Shown here: one piece after another, positions 16,718 to 36,318 of the stretch
Layout of the letters: every line of letters begins with the position of its first letter
How positions within the stretch are numbered: position 1 is the first letter of the stretch
Source: an uncultured bacterium
Lineage (GTDB): Bacteria > Bacteroidota > Bacteroidia > Bacteroidales > CAIXTV01
DNA length: 64,000 nucleotides
Assembly (NCBI GenBank): GCA_903922465.1
Contig: CAIXTV010000124.1
Location: 1-64,000, forward strand
Direction of reading: 5' to 3'
Program-made: the position numbers and the translations under genes
The notes under the pieces: model-generated
What the model was told of the DNA's origin: nothing
Databases searched by the model: none
Seen by the model: the letters and a program-made list of their open reading frames with translations, nothing else

Positions 16718-18697
16718 TTATTGCCCCTCTGTTTTTTTCTCAAAAACAAGTACTACCTTATTGAAGTTTGCAGAAGCATTTGCCACACGTCGATAATCTT
16801 CAAACTCACTCACAGCATACTCATATTCCTTATAATATTCCAAAATTGAAATGGTCACGATATTGTTTTCCAGTTTGTAATCAGAAACAAAAGACATGGT
16901 GGAGTCGTTGTTTTTTCTGATATAATTCTCAATAAGTTTCAATTGATCTAGGTTAGAAACTTTGTATCCAGTGGGGATGTTGAAAACAATGTTTCTGATA
17001 TATCCATGGTTATAAGGAAACTCAAGAGGGAGTTTACGCTCTTCTTTCTTATAAAGTTCCATCTGTGGTCCTATCAGCATTCCTGCCTTAAACAGAAACT
17101 TAGTGCCGGCTTTTTCAAAAAAATAGTCCGATTTAAGTTTCGCTTTTGTAATTAAAGGTTTTTGTCCAAGAAAATTTCCTTCATTGTTTTCAAAAGTCAA
17201 TTCAACAATAGTTCCCTCTTTATCAATACTTTTTATGATTGATTCAGAAAAATCCTTTAATTTATCTTCCTCTTTTATAAAACTGAAGTAAGGCTGATAA
17301 TTGGCGGCAGTGTATCCTGCCATTTCTCGGGAAATATCCAATTTGGTATCGTTGAAGTCTGTGTTAATATCAACTTTAATTCTTAGTATATCCATACTTT
17401 CATCGTATTTTGCTCCCTTAATGAATTTTATTTTCCCGAGTCCTGTGCTATAATCTCCCATCGAAACAGTCTTGATAAATAACCCATAATTGTTAATATT
17501 GCTATTATCAGGAAAGCCAAGCCTGGTGAAATTATCATTAGGAGAAAGATACTTTTTGATTTTAGGGAAATATAGCAGATATTTATCAAGAAACGAATAG
17601 CATTCGAAGTCCATATCAAATTTAGTATCGAAACGATCTGAGGTAATTACAATTTCTGTTTCAATATCAAGGGCTTTGAAAAGGTTTGCAAATAGCTTCA
17701 CTGCTCCAAATTCATTATATGCTTTGTTTGCAACAACTTTCGAGATTAACGATTTGTCAGGTTCCAAAGATTCATGATAAATAAAATTTGTTTTCAAATA
17801 ATTCTCTATCAATCTAATTTTAGCCTCTTCGCTATTTGCATCCAGTTTAACATCTTTAATCAAACTTTTAATTGACTTTAAATCTTTTGACTCAAGTTCA
17901 TTATATATCCGATCATAAATACTAGAAGCAATTGGGCCATATGAATATATATCTTTCTTTCCAGTTGCTGAATTAAAATTAAGTTTTACAGCATACTTCA
18001 TTAAATTTGCTTTTAAGGCAGCACCTTCTTCATCCTTTAAACGAGGTATATTTTCTTTTTTAATTACCCATACATTATTTGCTTTTTCATTTGTATCCAA
18101 AATAGCTTCAGGACATCCATTATAACTTTTAAATTTAAATCCCAGATTTGTAGGAGTTATATATTTTGATTCTGAATATAAGATGGGAATACCAGATTGA
18201 ATTATATTAATACTCCCTTTTAGAGATGGTTGTTGTTTAATGCAATACATATACTCTATTTCGCAACCTTCTTCAATTCCTTCAAAAGCAAAATAATGGT
18301 ATTTTGTTTCAGACTCCTGATCAAAAGCTTCTTTAATTTCGTCTTTTTTCAATTCCTTGATGGTACCATCATTTTTAATTACCCTAGCTTTTTCAAAGGC
18401 TGTTTTATCATCATTATACAAAGGAATATATACCTTGTTATTGCTTTCAATACCAACATGAGTAATAAGTTTTAATCTTTTATGAGTAATTTTATATTCT
18501 GTCAAAACATCATTCTCATAAACATACTCATAGAAATTCTTAACGAAAATCACTACAGAATTATTCGATGTATCCGAATCAGTTTTTGTCAGTTTTGGGT
18601 TCTCTTCCCATCTATACGATTTGTAGTTTTCAAGGGGGGATTGAGCATTTAGGCTTGTAACAATTACAAAGGTTAATAATAAGAATTTGTTTTTCAT
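16718..18697 (-). CDS. DUF3857 domain protein, exported (first of two)
   Basis: 659 residues with a signal peptide (MKNKFLLLTFVIVTSLNAQ). The DUF3857 domain covers about residues 45-240, including KRLKLITHVGIESNNKVYIPL and EGIEEGCEIEYMY. Residues 280-400 have the helical layout of a transglutaminase-like fold, but in ANKAYNEFGAVKLFANLFKAL a Gly stands where the nucleophilic Cys of RYGDCKD would be, so this copy looks catalytically inactive. A C-terminal beta-rich part follows. Its start overlaps the end of the next DUF3857 gene upstream by 4 bp, which implies translational coupling. Probably periplasmic; function unknown. Confidence 0.82.
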   Translation of the reverse strand: MKNKFLLLTFVIVTSLNAQSPLENYKSYRWEENPKLTKTDSDTSNNSVVIFVKNFYEYVYENDVLTEYKITHKRLKLITHVGIESNNKVYIPLYNDDKTAFEKARVIKNDGTIKELKKDEIKEAFDQESETKYHYFAFEGIEEGCEIEYMYCIKQQPSLKGSINIIQSGIPILYSESKYITPTNLGFKFKSYNGCPEAILDTNEKANNVWVIKKENIPRLKDEEGAALKANLMKYAVKLNFNSATGKKDIYSYGPIASSIYDRIYNELESKDLKSIKSLIKDVKLDANSEEAKIRLIENYLKTNFIYHESLEPDKSLISKVVANKAYNEFGAVKLFANLFKALDIETEIVITSDRFDTKFDMDFECYSFLDKYLLYFPKIKKYLSPNDNFTRLGFPDNSNINNYGLFIKTVSMGDYSTGLGKIKFIKGAKYDESMDILRIKVDINTDFNDTKLDISREMAGYTAANYQPYFSFIKEEDKLKDFSESIIKSIDKEGTIVELTFENNEGNFLGQKPLITKAKLKSDYFFEKAGTKFLFKAGMLIGPQMELYKKEERKLPLEFPYNHGYIRNIVFNIPTGYKVSNLDQLKLIENYIRKNNDSTMSFVSDYKLENNIVTISILEYYKEYEYAVSEFEDYRRVANASANFNKVVLVFEKKTEGQ

Positions 18698-20616
18698 ATT
18701 TTCTTTTTTAATACAATTACTTCTTTAAAATCAGAACGCATTTGTTTGAGCATTTTATTCCATAAATCAAAAAACTCATGCTTTAGCAACAAGGTATCTT
18801 CATTTGATGTAAAACAATAAAATATTTGATTTCCTTTCATTTCATAACTAATTTCATAAAAGAAATTCACACCTTCAAACCTTGTGTTCTTTGGCAAATT
18901 AACTATTTCGTATCCTACAGGCAAAGTAAAAACATAATTTATATTTAACGAAGATTTGAAATAAAATTCATAGTCAAGTTTTCTGTCTTCCTTGAATAAC
19001 TCAAAATCTTTATAAGGCTGTGCCAAATTTAAATTTACATAAATTTCATTATCATTAAACTTTACATAATCAGGAACATGGAACTTATATTTTATTTGAA
19101 TACTACTATCAGAAGAATTAACCTTATAATCATCAAGAATGTACTTATTGTTTCCAACTTCCAAATACGATTTCATGAATTTGGTTTTATCATCAGCGTC
19201 TTTAACTCTTTCAATTGCTTGCTTCATATCTGAATAATAATAACCATTAAGAAGAATACTCCCTTTGCCAACAATTTCACCCTGTTCGATAGTGAGACTT
19301 ACTGAATCAGAATGAACACTTCTATCAGCAGGCACAACAGGGACTTTTTGTATTTCATAAGTTTCATTATTCAACCTAATTAATGCTTCTTTCCCCTGTA
19401 TAAATGAATTGGGAAGACCAAGAGGTATATATGAATTTGTTGCATCAAGGAAATAATATTTCCCTTTATCAATATACGTTGCAATCATATGGTTGTCAAC
19501 TATAGACGTGGGGATTTCATTGTATGAATAGGGTAAATCCCTTGTACCTATCCAAGTGTAGCAAGCTTTAACTTTAGCGATATCGAGTAATTCGATTATA
19601 ATCGTTGCCATGTCCTTACAATCTCCGTATCTTTTTTCGAAAATCAGAAAGGGACTCCGTGGAATAAACCCGCCCAACCCATATTCATTTGCGACATATT
19701 TTATGTTATTTTGAACCCAACGATATACTGCTGCCACTTTTTGAGAATCGCTCTTACAATCAACAATTAAAGCTTGAACAATTGAAATCATTTCTTCAGT
19801 GTGCTTATGGTCAAGCTCAGAAACATTCTCGTTATACCATTTGAATAAATCATCAACATTCCGGAGTACTTCAACTTCCCTCTCTTTTAATTTATAGGAT
19901 TTAATGTAAGGAATAATTTGAGGTAAATAACATAGATAATTTGGTGAACGAGTTTCATTTTTATAGCTTGGAATATTTTTTGCTTTCCATGAATATATTA
20001 ATCTCCCTCCTTTCTCCAATTTACTAAAATCGAGTTGTAAAGAATCCATATTAAAAAACTTGATATCAAATTCAACATTCTTATCTGTATTAATTATGAA
20101 TTCAAAATTATCGACTGGGTAATATTTTTTCACGATAGCAAATGGGAAAAACCGTGGTTCTTTAATATCAAGAGTATATTTTAATTTTGTGATTGCCCCT
20201 TGTCGAAGAGAAGGATAAAAAAAAGAAGTTTCAAATAAATCCTGATAAAAGACATCATTATCAAGAACCTCCTTGGTCTTAAATTCTTTCACCTTACATT
20301 CTTTAAATTTATCATTATTCGGTAAAAGAGTGCTAGCTTCAATATCTTTAATCTTGATATAATGTGAAGATTGAATACTCCCTTCAGAAAAAGCGCCTGC
20401 TTTAAAATTATTGTAATAAATTTCTTCAAATTTTGTTTCCTCAATTTTTAAACCTGATTTTTCAATATCAACTAAAATCTCAGTTTTTAAATTAAGATAA
20501 ACTATGTCATTGTTTTTAAACTTAGTCCCATAATTATTGAAATCAGAAACATTTTGTGAAAAAGCGATACTTGCAAAACTTAAGCAAATGAAAAGAAATT
20601 TTATTTTTGTTTTGAT
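18694..20616 (-). CDS. DUF3857 and transglutaminase domain protein with no standard start codon
   Basis: About 640 residues. The longest frame with a standard codon starts at GTG 20292, but the same frame stays open to about 20625 and encodes a good signal peptide (KIKFLFICLSFASIAFSQ), so translation must begin upstream. There is no ATG, GTG or TTG there; an ATC at 20616 sits exactly where MKTKIKFLF would begin. Downstream come DUF3857 and an intact transglutaminase triad: Cys in RYGDCKDMA, His in DNHMIA and Asp in FLDATNS. Length then matches the paralogue downstream (659). It overlaps that paralogue by 4 bp and lies 63 bp after the TPR/MORN-like gene. A start-codon mutation, a rare start or a base error are all possible. 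Confidence 0.75.
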   Translation of the reverse strand: MKTKIKFLFICLSFASIAFSQNVSDFNNYGTKFKNNDIVYLNLKTEILVDIEKSGLKIEETKFEEIYYNNFKAGAFSEGSIQSSHYIKIKDIEASTLLPNNDKFKECKVKEFKTKEVLDNDVFYQDLFETSFFYPSLRQGAITKLKYTLDIKEPRFFPFAIVKKYYPVDNFEFIINTDKNVEFDIKFFNMDSLQLDFSKLEKGGRLIYSWKAKNIPSYKNETRSPNYLCYLPQIIPYIKSYKLKEREVEVLRNVDDLFKWYNENVSELDHKHTEEMISIVQALIVDCKSDSQKVAAVYRWVQNNIKYVANEYGLGGFIPRSPFLIFEKRYGDCKDMATIIIELLDIAKVKACYTWIGTRDLPYSYNEIPTSIVDNHMIATYIDKGKYYFLDATNSYIPLGLPNSFIQGKEALIRLNNETYEIQKVPVVPADRSVHSDSVSLTIEQGEIVGKGSILLNGYYYSDMKQAIERVKDADDKTKFMKSYLEVGNNKYILDDYKVNSSDSSIQIKYKFHVPDYVKFNDNEIYVNLNLAQPYKDFELFKEDRKLDYEFYFKSSLNINYVFTLPVGYEIVNLPKNTRFEGVNFFYEISYEMKGNQIFYCFTSNEDTLLLKHEFFDLWNKMLKQMRSDFKEVIVLKKKI

Positions 20617-20679
20617 GATGTGTTTTTTTTAGAATTCATATTCCAGGAAAAAGTTTGCATTTCGATTAAGATTGATTTA

Positions 20680-23600
20680 TTACTTTTCGCTAATCCCTAC
20701 TAACTCATCATCATAATACATTAGAACTATAACTTGTTTTCCAGTCTTATCATATTTAATGCATTTCCCATGTTGATTGTCGTAAAGAAAACTGGTTGTT
20801 TCTTTTAATTTACCTTCAGGGTAATACTTCTCCTGAACTCCATTTAAATCTCCAAAATAATAATTTCTTTTTTCTTTAATTTTTCCATTCGCAAAATAAA
20901 AAACATCTTCACCCGAAACATCATCATCAATATATATTAATTTTTCAAACAATTGACCTGTTGAGTAATAGCGAGTATATTCGCCTTGATATAAACCTTT
21001 ATTTAAACTGAATTGACGGGCCAATTTCCCATTTTTAAAATATATCTTCACATCACCTGTTTCATTAGTAATTTCAAGGGTTTTCTCACTACCATTAGCT
21101 TCGAAATAGGTGTAAGATATCAAATGATCATAAAGATATTGGCGTTTATGTTCTAACAATCCGTCAGGCCCGTAATAGAATGAAGTTCCTTCTAGTACAT
21201 CGTCGATATATACTTTTTCATTTTCAATTTTACCATCTTCAAAATAATGCACATCTTTTCCATTTCGCTGTCCATTTTGATAATCTATAGTTCTTGATAA
21301 TTTTCCATCTTCAGTATAGTATTCCCATTTCCCAATTTTATCACCATGCTGGTAACTGCCATTAGTATTTAATTTCCCATTCCAATAATACCATTTCCAA
21401 TTACCATTTTTATATCCATTATAATATTGCCCTTTTACATCAACCTTGCCATTTGGGAAATAGTAGGTATAATCACCTTCAAAAACATTATACTTCAGAC
21501 TTATCTCTGATTTCACAGGTCCCCCTTTATAAAAATGATAAACTCTCTTTCCTGAAGCATTTGAATAATTTATACTATCTACAACTACTCCAGTTGTGTC
21601 AAAATTTGCTGAATTTAGTAATGTCCCTTTATAGAAAGACTCTGTTTCTTTTATTTTCCCGTTTATTGAATAAAATTTCTGAATACCATTATACTCTCCA
21701 TCTATAAAATATTTTTCATTCGCAATTGATTTATCAGGGTTGTAGCGGACCCAATTGCCTTCTTCTTTGTCGTTTTTATAATTACCATGCTCAAGAATAT
21801 TTCCATTTTTAAAATTCTCAATATAATAGCCTTCTAAAACATCTTTTTTGTATTTGATGATTTTTTTAAGTTTCCCATTAGGAAAATATCGAGTTGTTTC
21901 ATTTTCCGCTTTTCCATCTTTATAATTTGAAACGGCCTGAAGATTTCCATTGTCATCATAGAATTTCCATTCACCTTGTTTATCTTCTTTTCCATATTTC
22001 CCCATACTTCGTCTATTCCCATTAGAATAAAAGCCTTCGAAATCAAAACTCCCGCTTTTTTTCTTATCCTGTTTAATAATTTCTCCATTTTTATTTAGAT
22101 ACTTATAACCAATAATCTCTCCTCTTTTGTACTCCATTTCGCAATAAAGTTTTCCGTCTGTATCGTATTCTTTTCGAATTCCATTTAGCTTTCCGCTTTC
22201 ATCAAAATCGGAAGTTACAGAAATTGCACCATTCGAATGATACTGAATATTGTTTCCAATGGCTTTATCATTTAAGTATTTAAGTGAATCCGAAGTTTTT
22301 CCATTCTCATAATAGGAAATATAATCCCCTTGCAATAAACCTTTAACGTAATTTGATTTTAATGAAATCTTTCCATCACGATAATAATAAGTTTCCTGCC
22401 CATTCTTATCTCCTTCGAAATAATTTTTCTCACTTTTAAGCTCCCCACTATTATAAAAAGTCTTAAGTGCACCTTCTAACTTCCCATTTTTATAATTTCC
22501 TTTTAATAAAATCTGTCCATTGGAATAATATTCTTCGTAATTCCCTTCTCGTTTTGTGTCTTTAAAAGAGATTAGTTTGTCTTTTGCCCCATCGTTAGTG
22601 TAGGCAATAGCTTCCCCTTCAATTTTTTCATTTCTGTAAGGTATGTGTGTCTCGATAATGCCAATAAAGGAATATGAATCATCAGAAACAACCATTCCTT
22701 CTACATAGGATTCTTTTGATTTCAAATTACCATTTTCATAATACCATAGCCATTCGCCTTCTTTTTTTCCTTCTGCATTCCAACTACCACTAGCTTTAAT
22801 CCTACCATTTGGATGATATAGCTCAGTGTAGCCAACGAAATGAGTTTTTGCTTTGTTTAAATTACCGATTGAACTTATAGCATATCTTTTATTGGCTCTG
22901 AAAACATCTACTTTTTGTATTTTTCCATTAAATTCCATTTCATATTCGCGATGTTCATTATCCCAGGTATCTCTTATCCAATCAGTAAATGCTGTAAGCT
23001 TTGTTTTATTTTTTTCGACAATATCTTTATGTTTTTCATTTGAGCTAGCAATTAGCAGATAATTCGCGAATAAATCAAATTTATCGTTTTTGAGTAATTG
23101 CTTATAAAAGGGAACATACATTTTATACCAGAAACCTTTGTTCTCAGGTTTTTCCGGAAGTTTATCAAAAAGCAAATAGTCTTGCTTCACAAAAGGAATT
23201 TCCAATTTCGATTTAACTTTGTACTTTTTGTTTAAAGCAACATAATTTTGAATCAGCATATCTATGTCCGAAAAATCATCTCCATCAGTAAAATCAACAC
23301 CCTTCGATTTTACACTTTCCAGATACTTTGTCGAAGCCATTTCATTAATAAACACCAAAGCATTATTGGCATTAGCAGAAGTAGGTGCCAATAAAACATA
23401 AGTACTGAAGGCTAACATGGCAAGGGAAGTCTTGCCTTCATTCATAGCAAGTATTCCAAGGGCATAATGAGTTGCTGGGTGAAAAGGATTTAATTCAGCT
23501 GATTTTTTATAGTAATCGAAAGCCTCTTTGTCTTTACCTAATTTCATTAAAGGGTAAGCTTTATTATAATACAGCACATTAAATTTCGGAAAAAGTTTAA

Positions 23601-23973
23601 TGCCATCATCATATAGTTTTATTGCTTCTTCATACTTCTCGATATTGTCTAAGCTACTCCCCAAATTGCCAAAAAGTTCTGGACTTAAATATAAATTCAT
23701 GTTCAGTGCTTTTCTCCCTACTTCTATCCCCTTCTCATATTGCTTCAGTTGATAATAAGCCAAAACTTCTTCCACAAGAGCTGCATAATATGCTGTATCG
23801 CTTTCGGGAATTTTCATATACTCTTTTAAAGCATCTTCATATTTTTCTGCTTCATAAAAGCTTAAGCCTTTCTGAATTACTTTCTCTGCATTAATGATTT
23901 CAGGTTTATCCTGACTAATAGACATTTTGCTTACTAAGCAAAAAAGAATGAAAAATAAATATTTGGTTTTCAT
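20680..23973 (-). CDS. TPR plus YwqK/MORN-variant repeat protein, exported
   Basis: 1097 residues with a signal peptide (MKTKYLFFILFCLVSKMSISQ). Residues 30-220 contain tetratricopeptide repeats (KGLSFYEAEKYEDALKEY, KLYDDGIKLFPKFNVLYYN). From about residue 370 to the end there are some thirty repeats of the MORN-variant type G-x-x-x-x-Y-Y-x-N-G-K-L-K, as in YwqK-like proteins. The family is often labelled antitoxin in databases, but a signal peptide and no toxin partner make that name doubtful here. A periplasmic scaffold or surface protein is more likely, by inference. It is the first gene of a four-gene operon with the two DUF3857 proteins and the ferredoxin-nitroreductase. Confidence 0.88.
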   Translation of the reverse strand: MKTKYLFFILFCLVSKMSISQDKPEIINAEKVIQKGLSFYEAEKYEDALKEYMKIPESDTAYYAALVEEVLAYYQLKQYEKGIEVGRKALNMNLYLSPELFGNLGSSLDNIEKYEEAIKLYDDGIKLFPKFNVLYYNKAYPLMKLGKDKEAFDYYKKSAELNPFHPATHYALGILAMNEGKTSLAMLAFSTYVLLAPTSANANNALVFINEMASTKYLESVKSKGVDFTDGDDFSDIDMLIQNYVALNKKYKVKSKLEIPFVKQDYLLFDKLPEKPENKGFWYKMYVPFYKQLLKNDKFDLFANYLLIASSNEKHKDIVEKNKTKLTAFTDWIRDTWDNEHREYEMEFNGKIQKVDVFRANKRYAISSIGNLNKAKTHFVGYTELYHPNGRIKASGSWNAEGKKEGEWLWYYENGNLKSKESYVEGMVVSDDSYSFIGIIETHIPYRNEKIEGEAIAYTNDGAKDKLISFKDTKREGNYEEYYSNGQILLKGNYKNGKLEGALKTFYNSGELKSEKNYFEGDKNGQETYYYRDGKISLKSNYVKGLLQGDYISYYENGKTSDSLKYLNDKAIGNNIQYHSNGAISVTSDFDESGKLNGIRKEYDTDGKLYCEMEYKRGEIIGYKYLNKNGEIIKQDKKKSGSFDFEGFYSNGNRRSMGKYGKEDKQGEWKFYDDNGNLQAVSNYKDGKAENETTRYFPNGKLKKIIKYKKDVLEGYYIENFKNGNILEHGNYKNDKEEGNWVRYNPDKSIANEKYFIDGEYNGIQKFYSINGKIKETESFYKGTLLNSANFDTTGVVVDSINYSNASGKRVYHFYKGGPVKSEISLKYNVFEGDYTYYFPNGKVDVKGQYYNGYKNGNWKWYYWNGKLNTNGSYQHGDKIGKWEYYTEDGKLSRTIDYQNGQRNGKDVHYFEDGKIENEKVYIDDVLEGTSFYYGPDGLLEHKRQYLYDHLISYTYFEANGSEKTLEITNETGDVKIYFKNGKLARQFSLNKGLYQGEYTRYYSTGQLFEKLIYIDDDVSGEDVFYFANGKIKEKRNYYFGDLNGVQEKYYPEGKLKETTSFLYDNQHGKCIKYDKTGKQVIVLMYYDDELVGISEK

Positions 23974-24404
23974 AAATTCGATTATTAATTCTTATAGAGT
24001 GAGTTTTTGGGTTAGAAAAGATGAAATATTGTATAGCATAAATAGGCTTAAAAAAACTATTAATTGAGCATTCATTGATGTAATATCATTTTAATGAAAC
24101 AATTTGATTGAGGCATCTTAATTATGATTATTTGCCAAAAATAAAAAAAAATCAAAATCAAACTCTTTTAATTTTAAAATCAATTATTTTGAGTAATACT
24201 TGCAAGGTTTGAAATGCTAATATTCATCAATGATACAAAGAAATTCGCTGCTATTTATAAATTGAACTAAAGACAACTATTTCCGATACTTTTAAAACTG
24301 ATTTAGTCCATAATAATAAAATAATGCATAGAGCTTATCTTATGAAAGTCCACCAAATGGATTTGCAGTGAAAACAATCATCAATTCTTTAAAAGGAAAC
24401 ATTT
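23974..24404. other. Intergenic region with a possible operon promoter
   Basis: 431 bp, very AT-rich. A minus-strand TATTTTTG box at 24136-24143, with a TTG 15 bp further upstream, is a weak candidate promoter for the TPR/MORN operon. No other gene, RNA or repeat is seen. Confidence 0.4.
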
Positions 24405-30519: not shown

Positions 30520-31761
30520 TTATTTAAAAAAGGGCATCAATAACAATGCGGCAGATAGGACAATTAAGATAGCAATTGCGCTCCAACCTATGATATTGTT
30601 AAAGGGTTTGTTGACGTATTTGCCCATGATTTTCTTGTTGTTCACCAGCAATATCATACAAATGAGCACCACAGGCAACAAGAGACCATTTATCACTTGC
30701 GACCATAAAGAAATGAAAATCAAAGGGGCATTTGGCAACAAAATAATGAGAGCCCCCACTATTAAAATGCCAGTGTATAAGATGTAAAATTCTTTAGCCT
30801 CGTCCCACTTTTTGTCGATACCAGCTTCAAATCCGAAAGCTTCGCAAACGTAGAAGGCTGTGGCTAAGGGCAAAATAGTTGCAGAGAAAATGGCAGCAAT
30901 AAAAAGTCCGAAAGCAAACAATTGCGAGGCGAAAGCCCCTGCTAAAGGCTTGAGTGCCATGGCCGCATCTTTTGCTTCGTTAATCTGCACCCCATTCACA
31001 TGCAAAGTTGAACCGCAAGCCACCATAATGAAAAACGCCACCACCACCGTAGCCACACATCCCACTAAAATATCGATGAGGGAATACTTATAATTCTTCA
31101 TCTTCAGGCCCTTTTCAATCACTGAGGATTGCATATAGAACTGCATCCATGGGGCAATAGTGGTCCCAATAATCCCAATTACCATGGCCAAACTTTGTGA
31201 ATTAAATTCCATTTCAGGGTGAATAACAGCATGACCTATTTCGTCCCAATGTGGTTTCCCCATAATGGCCGAAACCACATACATCAACAGCGAAATACTG
31301 AATAATAGGAAGATACGCTCCGCTATCTTATAGGTCCCCTTCACCACCAACACCCAAATGAGCACGCCTACTATGGGCACCGAGACATATTTGCTCACCC
31401 CGAAAACTTCCATACTGCCAGCAATACCGGCAAATTCTGTGGTGGTATTGCCGATATCAGCAATCAGCAAACCAATGAAAATGAAAAAAGTAACTTTAAC
31501 TCCTGCGTTCTCGCGTATCAAATCGGCCAAACCTTTGCCTGTAACAATGCCCATCCGAGCATTCATTTCCTGAATCACTACCAGCACAATAAAGGATGGG
31601 ATGAGAGTCCAAATAAGATTATATCCATACACAGCACCCGCCACCGAATAGGTAGTAATGCCACCGGCATCATTGTCAACGCTTCCCGTGATGATACCCG
31701 GACCTAAGATGGCCAGAAATATTCCCAGCTTTTTGAAAAACGACCTGCGTCTTTTAAACAT
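30520..31761 (-). CDS. Nramp-family divalent metal transporter lacking canonical metal-site motifs
   Basis: 413 residues with about eleven membrane segments. The overall Nramp fold is clear: GPGIITGS in the first helix, GLLIADIGNTTTEFAGIAG in the third, IGTTIAPWMQFYMQSS in the sixth. The two motifs that coordinate Mn or Fe in classic MntH/Nramp are changed. The first-helix DPGN reads DNDA (residues 29-32), and the sixth-helix MPH reads APW (203-205), removing the metal-coordinating Met. Loss of this Met is known in Nramp-related magnesium transporters. The gene lies 9 bp after a gene for a soluble MgtE-type Mg-sensing protein, which also points toward magnesium or another non-Mn ion. That is inference. 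Confidence 0.85.
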   Translation of the reverse strand: MFKRRRSFFKKLGIFLAILGPGIITGSVDNDAGGITTYSVAGAVYGYNLIWTLIPSFIVLVVIQEMNARMGIVTGKGLADLIRENAGVKVTFFIFIGLLIADIGNTTTEFAGIAGSMEVFGVSKYVSVPIVGVLIWVLVVKGTYKIAERIFLLFSISLLMYVVSAIMGKPHWDEIGHAVIHPEMEFNSQSLAMVIGIIGTTIAPWMQFYMQSSVIEKGLKMKNYKYSLIDILVGCVATVVVAFFIMVACGSTLHVNGVQINEAKDAAMALKPLAGAFASQLFAFGLFIAAIFSATILPLATAFYVCEAFGFEAGIDKKWDEAKEFYILYTGILIVGALIILLPNAPLIFISLWSQVINGLLLPVVLICMILLVNNKKIMGKYVNKPFNNIIGWSAIAILIVLSAALLLMPFFK

Positions 31762-31770
31762 GATTGAACC

Positions 31771-33042
31771 CTATGCCTTATTTGTTCGGCCCTTATCCAT
31801 TAAATCGTCGAAAACATCATCAATCACCACCATGCCCTGTAAAACTTCATCCTTGTCCACCACCGGAATAGCAAGCATATTATATTTCGAAATCAACTCA
31901 GCAATTTCATCAATCTTCTGATAATCGTATAAATACACAAGCGCTGGTTTCATTATTTGATGAATGATGGTTTCGGGAGGCGAAATCACCAAATCTCTCA
32001 ACGAAAAAGTGGCTACGAGTTCTTCGTTCTCATTGGTAACGAAAAGGTTATATAAAGTCTCAGCTTCTGGTTTTTCAGTTCTCAAAATAGCGTAAACATC
32101 CTCCACACTTGCATTTTCTCTGAACGAAAGCACTTCTGCCGACATTATGCTTCCCACCACATGGTCGGGGTATACAAGCAATTCGCGGACTTCCTGCGAA
32201 GTATCCTTTTCCATCTCGTTCAGCAAGAGTTCAACTTTCTCGTCTTCCAATTCATCGAGAATATCAGCCACTTCGTCGGCAGGCATCTTATCTAAAACAT
32301 CAGCTGCTTTTTCAATAGTAAGGCTTTCGATAATCTGAATCTGGGTTTCCACTTCGAGTTCTTCGAGCACATCAGCCGCTTTTTCTTCGTCAAGCGATAA
32401 AAACACCTCCGCACTGGCTTTTTTACCCATCTCCTCGATGATATCGGCCAAATCGGAAGGATGAAGCGTCTGTAACTTCGAATAGGTCTTAGAAAGCTTT
32501 ATATTGAGGTTAGAAAAATCGATAGCTTCAACATCTTCCCATAATATAAACTTAGCTGGCAGGCTCAACCTGAAAATGGCTAACATCCATTTGACTGGGG
32601 ACGCAATTCCAATCCGCCTTATCAAACCTTCTATGCCGATATCAACGGCAATAGCATAAGTGCCATTCGCTACCGAAACCAAACGTACATCGTTCACCCT
32701 GACCAGTTTTCGACCATTTAAATCAACAATTTGTTTATCGAGAACGTTTTCGACTAAATAAAGGTTATCACTGATAAAATCGGGAGACAATTCAATTCGT
32801 TTATGACAGATAATCTTTAACTTTTCATCTATCTTTTCAACAGTGAAGCCATCAAAGGAATAATAAATAATCTTTTTCTTGTTAGAAATTTTAATTCCGT
32901 TCACGAATGGCCTCTCAGAAGTGTGAAGCAAAGAATCGGAATCGACAAGAATGTCTTTTATAATTCCAATATAAATCCCATTCTTATCGAATGCTTTTTT
33001 GCCGATTATCCGGCTTAAATAAAATGTGGTGAATGTTGTCAT
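31771..33042 (-). CDS. Soluble PRC-barrel / MgtE-N / CBS-pair protein
   Basis: 423 residues, no membrane segment. Two PRC-barrel-like parts occupy about residues 1-180 (RIIGKKAFDKNGIYIGIIKD; VLDKQIVDLNGRKLVRVNDV). The helical MgtE N-domain repeats follow at about 190-295 (LHPSDLADIIEEMG, AADVLEELE, AADVLDKMPADEVADILDELE), then a CBS pair to the end (YPDHVVGSIMSAEVLSFREN, IIHQIMKPALVYLYD). In MgtE these last two domains sense cytosolic Mg and gate the channel, but the channel part is absent here. The start is ATG 33042, not the GTG at 33048, because AAGGAGGT precedes it at 33047-33054. The Nramp-like gene follows 9 bp downstream, so this may be its regulator. Confidence 0.85.
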   Translation of the reverse strand: MTTFTTFYLSRIIGKKAFDKNGIYIGIIKDILVDSDSLLHTSERPFVNGIKISNKKKIIYYSFDGFTVEKIDEKLKIICHKRIELSPDFISDNLYLVENVLDKQIVDLNGRKLVRVNDVRLVSVANGTYAIAVDIGIEGLIRRIGIASPVKWMLAIFRLSLPAKFILWEDVEAIDFSNLNIKLSKTYSKLQTLHPSDLADIIEEMGKKASAEVFLSLDEEKAADVLEELEVETQIQIIESLTIEKAADVLDKMPADEVADILDELEDEKVELLLNEMEKDTSQEVRELLVYPDHVVGSIMSAEVLSFRENASVEDVYAILRTEKPEAETLYNLFVTNENEELVATFSLRDLVISPPETIIHQIMKPALVYLYDYQKIDEIAELISKYNMLAIPVVDKDEVLQGMVVIDDVFDDLMDKGRTNKA

Positions 33043-33046
33043 TAGC

Positions 33047-33054
33047 ACCTCCTT
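33047..33054 (-). promoter_or_regulatory. Full Shine-Dalgarno site before the MgtE-like gene
   Basis: AAGGAGGT on the minus strand, 4 nt before ATG 33042. It is an unusually complete match for a phylum where most genes lack one, and it fixes the start codon. Confidence 0.75.
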
Positions 33055-33068
33055 GTTTTATGTTTTAC

Positions 33069-33103
33069 AGTAGGAGCCAACAATTCCGAATGACGAGCCT
33101 ACT
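33069..33103 (-). promoter_or_regulatory. Leader hairpin upstream of the MgtE-like/Nramp operon
   Basis: AGTAGG (33069-33074) and CCTACT (33098-33103) form a 6-bp stem around a 23-nt loop, 15 nt before the Shine-Dalgarno site. A minus-strand TACTTTTG box at 33173-33180 would give a leader of about 125 nt containing this hairpin. It does not match the M-box or yybP-ykoY consensus that I know. A metal-responsive leader is a guess from position. Confidence 0.3.
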
Positions 33104-33324
33104 ATATTAGGTTAATAATTAATTTTCTCGCAGGTCCTTCGTCCATTTTTGTAGTTATATGTATTTACAGCGCAAAAGTAGGTATATATTCAATTCAAAA
33201 AAGAAAATTATAGACTAATAGTTTTAAAAAAACTTAATAGAGAGGAAATCAGAAAAAAAGCAGACCAGGATTACACAGTAAAAGACTCTAAAACAGACTA
33301 AAAACACCAAACACTCAAAATACT

Positions 33325-34380: not shown

Positions 34381-36318
34381 TTAATCAGTAATTCGGGTCA
34401 ACCTGCATTCACCACTCGGATTAATAACCAATGGCACAGTTTCGGTAATCACATTACTGGTATCCAATCCGTAAGCTTTCATTTCAGTGATTCCAATCTT
34501 TTTAAGCACATCATAGCTATCCATGATAAACTGATTGAAAGGTTTGAAATCATAATCGAATCCTTGCACTCTGTCAGTAAGAACAAACCTAAAATCTCCA
34601 GTTACAGCATACTTTCGTAAGGATGGATAGCGTGATGTGATATCAACTTCACTGTTGCTAACTAAAGTCTCGATAACTTTTCTGAAATATAGATAGATTT
34701 TAGTAGGCACCTTAAACCCAATTCTAAAGTCAATCCTAATAAACGAACCTGGAATTAAAGGAGTTATTTTGTAGGTTAAAGTGTGAGGATCATCAACAAC
34801 ATCAACATGAATCAACCAGTATACGTCTGCTCTTTTAGGTTGTTTGTTAAATATAGAATACATCACCTTCGATTCTACTTCATGTATTGAATTGGCATGA
34901 GTAAAGTACACGAGATTGGTGGCATATTTCGCAATGCTTTCATCCTTTTTCACATCGTTTATCATCGAGAAATATTTATCGATAAAGACAAATTCGGTTA
35001 GCCTATTTTTGATTTTTCTTCCTTTAAACCAAACGTACATGATATAAGAAATAAAGCCTGCAATTAATATTGTAACCCAACCTCCATGAATAAACTTAAA
35101 CAAATTGGCAATAAAAAACGAGACCTCTATTATGAGGTAACAACCAAGGAAAATAAATATATAAATGTTTGACTTCCGTTTAATGTAAAAATAAAAACTC
35201 ATCAACAGTGTAGTCATCAGCATGGTAATTGTAATTGCCAAGCCATAAGCCGCCTCCATATTGGTAGACTTTTGAAAGAATAAAATAATAGCTACACACC
35301 CTGCAAACAAGAACTTGTTAATACTGGGAATGTACATTTGTCCTTTATTCAAAGTGGGATGACTGATTTGGACACGAGGCCAGAAATTCAATAAAATTGC
35401 CTCATTAATTATGGTGTAAGACCCTGATATCAAGGCCTGACTTGCAATAATAGCAGCAAGGGTAGCGATAAGAATTCCAGGGAGCAGAAACCATTCGGGC
35501 ATGATTGAAAAGAAAGGATTGGCATCAATGGCAATGCCTGGATGTAGGAGCAACCATGCCCCCTGCCCAAGATAATTGAGGATTAGGGTTATTTTCACAT
35601 AAATCCATGATACTCTAATATTTTTAATTCCGCAATGTCCAAGGTCCGAATACAAAGCTTCAGCCCCGGTTGTACAAAGGAATACTGCTCCTAACAATAA
35701 AAACCCTCCTTGATGATTGGAAAGCAGTGCATAAGCATAATAAGGATTGAAGGCTTTAAGTATAACAGGGTTTTGCAATATCTGCGAAAACCCAAGCACA
35801 CCTAGCATCATGAACCATAAAAACATTACAGGGCCAAAAAATTTCCCAATAAAGTTAGTGCCATATTGCTGTATAAAAAATATAGCAAAGATGATAAACA
35901 AGGCTATAGGAACAACTGGGACATCAGAATTAAATAAAGCAAGACCTTCAATAGCAGAAACAACTGTAATTGCAGGAGTAATGATTCCATCAGCGAGCAA
36001 GGCAGCTCCACCAATAATAGCCAAAATAAATGCCCATTTTACATGCCGCCTGATTAAGGCATATAAAGCAAGTATCCCACCTTCTCCCTTGTTATCAGCC
36101 CTGAGGGTAATTATTACGTATTTAATTGTGGTTTGCAGCGTTAAAGTCCAAATGATACAGGAAATCCCTCCTACTATCACAAGTTCCTTCGCCCCTCCAG
36201 AGAAGTTAAGTATGGCTCGTAAAACATATAATGGTGAGGTTCCTATATCTCCAAAAACTATTCCAAGAGTAATGATTACCCCCCAAGTACTAAGTTTAGA
36301 AATGTTTGTGCTTTTCAT
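34381..36318 (-). CDS. kup: KUP-type potassium uptake transporter
   Basis: 645 residues with about twelve membrane segments in the first 430 residues and a soluble C-terminal domain. Signature segments are GIVFGDIGTSPLYVLRAI in the first helix, KGEGGILALYALIRR after the second, and LLADGIITPAITVVSAIEGL in the third. This is a proton-coupled K+ importer of the inner membrane, with function assigned by family. The C-terminal region after about residue 430 has an alternating strand-helix pattern as in Kup cytosolic domains. A TACATTTG box lies at 36335-36342 on the minus strand, just before the start; its -33 element is weak. Probably monocistronic. Confidence 0.95.
   Translation of the reverse strand: MKSTNISKLSTWGVIITLGIVFGDIGTSPLYVLRAILNFSGGAKELVIVGGISCIIWTLTLQTTIKYVIITLRADNKGEGGILALYALIRRHVKWAFILAIIGGAALLADGIITPAITVVSAIEGLALFNSDVPVVPIALFIIFAIFFIQQYGTNFIGKFFGPVMFLWFMMLGVLGFSQILQNPVILKAFNPYYAYALLSNHQGGFLLLGAVFLCTTGAEALYSDLGHCGIKNIRVSWIYVKITLILNYLGQGAWLLLHPGIAIDANPFFSIMPEWFLLPGILIATLAAIIASQALISGSYTIINEAILLNFWPRVQISHPTLNKGQMYIPSINKFLFAGCVAIILFFQKSTNMEAAYGLAITITMLMTTLLMSFYFYIKRKSNIYIFIFLGCYLIIEVSFFIANLFKFIHGGWVTILIAGFISYIMYVWFKGRKIKNRLTEFVFIDKYFSMINDVKKDESIAKYATNLVYFTHANSIHEVESKVMYSIFNKQPKRADVYWLIHVDVVDDPHTLTYKITPLIPGSFIRIDFRIGFKVPTKIYLYFRKVIETLVSNSEVDITSRYPSLRKYAVTGDFRFVLTDRVQGFDYDFKPFNQFIMDSYDVLKKIGITEMKAYGLDTSNVITETVPLVINPSGECRLTRITD

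Follow-up and report, generated by a model that had tools for sequence, protein, structure and literature searches.

Transporters of the Nramp-related Mg2+ type were named NrmT by Shin et al. (2014), who reported M-box riboswitches before some of the genes and, adjacent to the transporter gene, a gene related to the cytosolic domain of MgtE, for which they suggested a role in cytoplasmic feedback or as a chaperone (PMC4072509). In their work Mg2+ was imported by the transporter even when the partner gene was absent, and with the pair from Acidobacterium capsulatum uptake of Mn2+ was fully rescued, that of Mg2+ only at low-millimolar Mg2+, the partner adding nothing (PMC4072509). EleNRMT, from Eggerthella lenta, is a Mg2+ transporter in which the T224A substitution abolishes detectable Mg2+ transport (PMC8806188), and Mn2+ is also carried by it. 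Leader peptides control other Mg2+ transporter genes. MgtL starts with a destabilising EPDP sequence, where ribosomes drop off at low Mg2+ (PMC11282234), and in Salmonella mgtQ, which has Asp2 and Glu5, abortive translation frees the ribosome-binding site of mgtB through a choice between helix 2:3 and helix 3:4 (PMC8092293).

Here we describe a locus of an uncultured Bacteroidales bacterium, found in the window (the whole stretch of DNA analysed, 64,000 nucleotides), in which an NRMT gene, an MgtE-like partner gene and a short upstream ORF (uORF) stand in a row. We consider it likely that this is a Mg2+-uptake NRMT operon governed by a leader-peptide attenuator, the Mg2+ signal and the ribosome drop-off being drawn by analogy from MgtL and MgtQ.

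The transporter and its MgtE-like partner

The two genes of the pair are as follows.

30520-31761, minus strand: gene A, an NRMT of 413 aa, assigned from the EleNRMT match, the site residues and the tree
31771-33042, minus strand: gene B, a soluble protein of 423 aa with a PRC-like part, MgtE_N and a CBS pair, assigned from Pfam and a structure model

Gene A matches the Pfam family Nramp (6e-97), and its closest PDB chain is EleNRMT (7qia, E 1e-112), the top MntH chain reaching 5e-26; 7qia is also the top Foldseek match, with 44% identity. In an ungapped alignment, D31, G34, T200, A203, W205 and Q355 of gene A correspond to D55, G58, T224, A227, W229 and Q379 of EleNRMT, and every EleNRMT site residue checked is present. 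The site carries the NRMT signature, in which Asp and Gln are kept and Asn is replaced by Gly, Ala by Thr, Met by Ala and His by Trp, and because DAGG, GTTxAPW and Q355 are near-invariant across about 90 gene A homologues, these changes are not due to chance. The first-pass annotation had read the DPGN motif as DNDA (residues 29-32), a register off by two. DPGN aligns instead with DAGG (residues 31-34), so that the metal-binding Asp is retained (D31, EleNRMT D55) and Asn has become Gly (G34, EleNRMT G58). Its reading of MPH as APW stands: Met is replaced by Ala and the alpha-6b His by Trp, and the coordinating Met is absent from gene A.

In a tree of 58 proteins, gene A groups with NRMTs including those of C. 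ljungdahlii and Spirochaetota and EleNRMT, and canonical Nramps lie apart. The NRMT group forms one side of a branch with an SH-aLRT of 83, and a value of 95 is obtained for 29 NRMT rows that include gene A and leave aside EleNRMT and two others (L010 and L017). A phylogeny against MntH and NRMT had been named earlier as a check, and it places gene A among the NRMTs, outside canonical Nramp. Four lines of evidence, namely the match to EleNRMT, the site residues, the tree and the M-box before close relatives, support the earlier suggestion of an Nramp-related Mg2+ transporter, and we regard the identification of gene A as an NRMT as supported on this comparative evidence. Canonical MntH identity, which was also considered, is ruled out by the PDB match, the site residues and the tree. 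The genome (G000; 5.0 Mb, 97% complete) holds one other Nramp, which is canonical, with DPGN and MPH, and two CorA proteins.

In gene B, Pfam finds PRC (1.4e-6), MgtE_N (4e-26) and CBS (6e-14). The MgtE membrane domain (PF01769) is absent from gene B and from the whole genome, and the MgtE_N of gene B is the sole one in the genome. The most likely start is the ATG at 33042, preceded by AAGGAGG, in agreement with the end coordinate given in the first-pass annotation; the partner had been described there as lying 9 bp off with PRC, MgtE-N and CBS domains and no membrane part, and both the 9-bp gap and the Pfam result agree. The structure model (pLDDT 84.6) compares with MgtE cytosolic domains at a TM-score of 0.82-0.91 by target length. 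Among 56 B proteins D256 is near-invariant and D409 invariant; they are equivalent to D91 and D247 of T. thermophilus MgtE, which bind Mg2+ in that channel. Six ATP contacts of MgtE are named in PMC5529423, and of these gene B keeps R187, D188 and V207 and loses Y170, N203 and F227. Outside the MgtE part, conservation is highest at residues 102-145 (D102, Q104, D107, R115-D118, D134 and R142-R143), which, judging from the sequence and the model, look like a second PRC-type domain, Pfam calling the first only.

Gene B thus has in common with the MgtE channel (2yvx / 2zy9) the fold of the N domain and CBS pair and the acidic residues that match D91 and D247, but differs in having no plug helix or membrane domain, an extra N-terminal PRC-like part and fewer ATP contacts. 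Because the plug helix and the membrane domain are the targets of the sensor in MgtE and are absent here, the target and mode of action of gene B are matters that we infer: the protein is probably a Mg2+ sensor or regulator of gene A. A role as a detached cytosolic gate is plausible by analogy with the channel, and the idea goes back to Shin et al. (2014; PMC4072509). In an AlphaFold model of a B-A read-through both parts fold well; with a pTM of 0.64 and no PAE, docking is not established.

The linkage of B to A is nearly obligate across phyla. Of 80 relatives from GTDB genomes, spread over many phyla, 75 have B next to A; in four of the remaining five a contig end interrupts the locus, which leaves L100 as the one true exception. 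Among 148 genomes of the phylum, all examined homologues with PRC, MgtE_N and CBS adjoin an NRMT, and the other MgtE_N loci examined have no adjacent NRMT. Natural B-A fusion proteins were not found among the 80 loci. Some Bacteroidota, namely one family and L021 from a second, have A before B, with about 220-250 bp between the two genes. Neither the pairing nor the cytoplasmic-feedback reading is new, since both appear in Shin et al. (2014; PMC4072509). Known NRMT/NrmT loci (EleNRMT, Ca_c0685 and Ca_c3329; PMC4072509, PMC8806188) share with this one the family, the site residues, the B-A operon and the MgtE-like partner. The clostridial relatives lie under an M-box, whereas the window leader has none.

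Variations on the arrangement were also seen. B and A overlap by 4 nt in five Omnitrophota loci (L097, L098, L113, L069 and L070), which suggests translational coupling. In three loci of one Bacteroidota family with the A-B order (L116, L117 and L118), a small ORF with a hydrophobic end (...MSKGVSFSLAVLRIYLFVLVLLMIYKFITVL) lies between A and B; that end is possibly membrane-spanning, and the ORF may encode a third component in that lineage. One locus (L177, on contig C7 of genome G363) keeps B and the leader uORF and has no A in the 3 kb downstream, the next ORF after B being unrelated and, as identified by eye, ThiF/E1-like. In the window itself, a gene for a Kup-type K+ transporter (34381-36318) lies two genes upstream of gene B on the same strand, with an epimerase/DUF1731 gene between them, and farther off, positions 18001-24000 are A+T-rich (GC 0.29-0.32) with strong GC skew and hold large minus-strand ORFs, one of 1097 aa.

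The leader peptide and the competing helices

Upstream of gene B, beyond the span covered by the first-pass annotation, the following elements are proposed, all on the minus strand.

33173..33180, minus strand: -7 element TACTTTTG, 34 nt upstream of the uORF, assigned from its fit to TAnnTTTG
33146-33102, minus strand: uORF MDEGPARKLIINLI, 14 codons plus TAG, assigned from conservation and codon variation
33098..33106, minus strand: region 2, predicted to form the 5' side of anti-sequestor helix 2:3 and overlapping the stop codon of the uORF, assigned from covariation
33066..33074, minus strand: region 3, CCTACTGTA with CT just upstream, predicted to pair with region 2 or with the Shine-Dalgarno
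33048..33054, minus strand: region 4, the near-invariant Shine-Dalgarno AAGGAGG of gene B, predicted to be hidden in helix 3:4

The Bacteroidota -7 consensus is TAnnTTTG, and most of the 25 Bacteroidota leaders have this motif at a distance of 28-38 nt before the uORF. A uORF of the form ATG-GAY-N-N-CCN (M-D-x-x-P) stands before gene B at 35 of the 75 loci with usable upstream sequence, compared with 0.26 expected from dinucleotide shuffles. Its carriers include Bacteroidota, Spirochaetota, one Chloroflexota row and Bacillota, where it has a Shine-Dalgarno and lies behind the M-box. A later set comprised 29 further loci from 393 genomes of the same order, one of them cut by a contig end and two identical in leader to earlier loci, and the uORF was present in 27 of its 28 complete leaders. 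A search for the exact leader pattern gave a single occurrence in this genome and none in 98 relatives of the order, and no such uORF was found before 16 MgtE genes of the phylum or before the genome's own CorA and Nramp genes.

The way in which the codons vary points to a peptide. In the other phyla Asp2 is encoded by GAC six times and by GAT six times, and Pro5 by CCT, CCG, CCA and CCC; the 48 Bacteroidota leaders include 45 with Asp or Glu at codon 3 and 31 with Gly at codon 4, four different codons being used for these residues at each of the two positions. There is usually one conserved Pro per uORF, and a Shine-Dalgarno precedes the uORF in Bacillota and Spirochaetota. This pattern indicates that the uORF is under coding constraint, and it is presumably translated.

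Downstream of the uORF, alternative pairings were assessed by cognate-swap tests, in which both helices are weakened when arms are exchanged between leaders and which gave z=-7.0 for helix 2:3 (-6.4 on 16 non-redundant leaders) and z=-6.1 for helix 3:4 (-4.9 when non-redundant), the control pairings in this first set falling short of z=-2. With the alignment columns fixed beforehand, the later set gave z=-6.7 for helix 2:3 (0/5000) and z=-2.6 for helix 3:4 (29/5000), the latter being weak since the 1:3 control there stood at -2.0. On 16 aligned leaders, chosen for lining up in one register, 86.9% of the cells of helix 2:3 are paired, and covariation is 0.410 compared with 0.288 for shuffled leaders (0/500) and at most 0.20 when the helix is slid. 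Helix 3:4 is weaker in a fixed register because lineages differ in the side from which the Shine-Dalgarno is covered, and RNAalifold finds no structure in the whole MAFFT leader alignment because the stems shift register. A further helix, 1:2 (uORF codons with region 2), was suggested by single-sequence folds and is unsupported in the cognate-swap tests (z -1.0 and -0.2), region 1 being too invariant. Taken as a whole, the comparisons argue for two mutually exclusive helices, of which 2:3 would free the gene B Shine-Dalgarno and 3:4 would hide it.

Folding with a ribosome mask is consistent with this. Of 35 leaders, 28 had a more open Shine-Dalgarno when the mask was set on codons 1-6 than when it was set at the stop codon (p=4e-4; 40% for shuffled leaders), where mask sizes were assumed and related leaders are not independent. 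For the window leader the difference is modest, with an openness of 0.62 for the early mask and 0.46 at the stop; the stability of this leader is unremarkable (z -0.9), and its 3:4 core is just 5 bp.

Neither an M-box (RF00380) nor any other Rfam element was found in the window leader. Among relatives, an M-box lies directly before gene B in 10 Bacillota and one Desulfobacterota (L090), these being 11 of the 17 relatives in one set, and 2 of 18 relatives in another set have a match as well. Eight Clostridia (L087, L088, L076, L077, L080, L061, L073 and L089), of which L080 is Clostridium ljungdahlii, have the M-box and then a Shine-Dalgarno-led M-D-x-(D/G)-P uORF, so that one operon may be under two successive controls of the Mg2+ type. 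The arrangement recalls the M-box of M. tuberculosis with the uORF rv1805A (PMC12810186), where an M-box is likewise followed by a conserved uORF on a Mg2+-linked operon; the rv1805A peptide is reported as mycobacteria-specific and of unknown role, and the likeness drawn here is one of arrangement.

A proposed Mg2+ attenuator and its alternatives

Since the leader assembles the ingredients of MgtL and MgtQ before a Mg2+ transporter operon, we infer that it confers translational induction at low Mg2+ through ribosome destabilisation. With ample Mg2+, ribosomes would translate the acidic uORF (MDEGP...) to its end and, once at the stop codon, would cover region 2, whereupon region 3 would pair with the gene B Shine-Dalgarno and the switch would be closed. 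When Mg2+ is scarce, ribosomes would be destabilised on the early Asp, Glu and Pro codons and region 2 would be left free to pair with region 3, exposing the Shine-Dalgarno so that B and A are made. Gene A would then serve as a proton-uncoupled NRAMP-fold Mg2+ importer, and gene B, acting at the protein level, would bind Mg2+ and repress gene A activity at high cytosolic Mg2+.

The likeness to Salmonella mgtQ-mgtB (PMC8092293) lies in the short uORF, the acidic codons at positions 2-5 and the exclusive helices gating the ribosome-binding site of a Mg2+ transporter. However, mgtQ lies between mgtC and mgtB in a P-type ATPase operon, whereas the uORF described here comes first among the ORFs of an NRMT operon and is found in other phyla, and helix 1:2 is part of the mgtQ scheme but finds no support in the NRMT leader. 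With MgtL of mgtA in E. coli and Salmonella (PMC11282234) the shared features are a peptide start rich in Asp, Glu and Pro and a Mg2+ transporter downstream; the output of MgtL is Rho-dependent transcription termination, while the predicted output of the NRMT leader is access to the Shine-Dalgarno. By the same analogy, we lean towards the view that the M-D-x-x-P uORF with its Shine-Dalgarno switch is an MgtL/MgtQ-type Mg2+ sensor on NRMT operons of Bacteroidota, Bacillota, Spirochaetota and others, and it seems rather probable that such a sensor would act alone in some lineages and behind the M-box in Clostridia.

The uORF and the switch could be real and yet answer to a different signal from Mg2+, for example the tRNA for proline or aspartate, the status of EF-P or ABC-F, or the general speed of translation. 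tRNA charging is the classic signal of leader-peptide attenuators, and a single conserved Pro in each uORF would suit it, as would mgtM and mgtP of another Mg2+ operon in Salmonella, which are reported to respond to ATP and charged tRNA-Pro. We nevertheless think such a signal unlikely: the constrained codons 2-5 encode Asp/Glu and one Pro, like EPDP of MgtL and D2/E5 of MgtQ, and no run of a single amino acid, the uORF sits behind the Mg2+-sensing M-box of the same operon in Bacillota, and its pattern was not found before 16 MgtE genes of the phylum or before the genome's own CorA and Nramp genes. That the ATGGACGA block is instead non-coding RNA belonging to a new Mg2+ or metabolite riboswitch aptamer would explain why the nucleotides ATGGAC are near-invariant in Bacteroidota leaders, and in Clostridia a riboswitch does this job. 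It is hard to reconcile with codons that vary while the amino acids stay (GAC or GAT for Asp2, four CCN codons for Pro5, Asp/Glu swaps at codon 3), with the Shine-Dalgarno motifs before the uORF in other phyla and with the unsupported pairing of regions 1 and 2, and we judge it very improbable.

As for the proteins, gene A might be chiefly a Mn2+ transporter and gene B its Mn2+-responsive partner, on the precedent of Acp2977 of Acidobacterium capsulatum, with which Mn2+ uptake was fully restored and Mg2+ uptake only at low-millimolar Mg2+, and of the Mn2+ transport by EleNRMT. In the tree, however, gene A shares a well-supported clade with clostridial NRMTs that are under M-box control, and the Acidobacteriota rows lie elsewhere; gene A also has the equivalent of EleNRMT T224, needed for Mg2+, and the genome has a separate canonical Nramp; a chief role in Mn2+ transport is thus quite improbable. 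A more serious, though still somewhat doubtful, alternative is that gene B does not gate A but serves as a chaperone or buffer for Mg2+ or as the regulator of some other protein. In the work of Shin et al., who offered the chaperone role as well, rescue was not improved by co-expressing the partner, and L177 retains B and the leader apart from any nearby A; set against this are the near-obligate linkage of B and A across phyla, in both gene orders, and the clear homology of gene B to the MgtE gate.

Implications for NRMT operons

A word search of the main text of Shin et al. (2014; PMC4072509) finds neither a leader peptide nor a uORF, and the combination of leader peptide and RNA switch is apparently unreported in the literature searched, where absence is not proof. 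The 2014 study did not settle what the MgtE-like partner does; the linkage found here shows its association with the transporter to be nearly obligate. If the operon is governed by a leader-peptide attenuator as proposed, Mg2+ sensing through destabilisation of the ribosome by its nascent chain would not be an enterobacterial speciality. A Mg2+-responsive leader would extend this mode of sensing to phyla for which no report was found, and would mean that a riboswitch and a leader peptide can be stacked on one Mg2+ operon.
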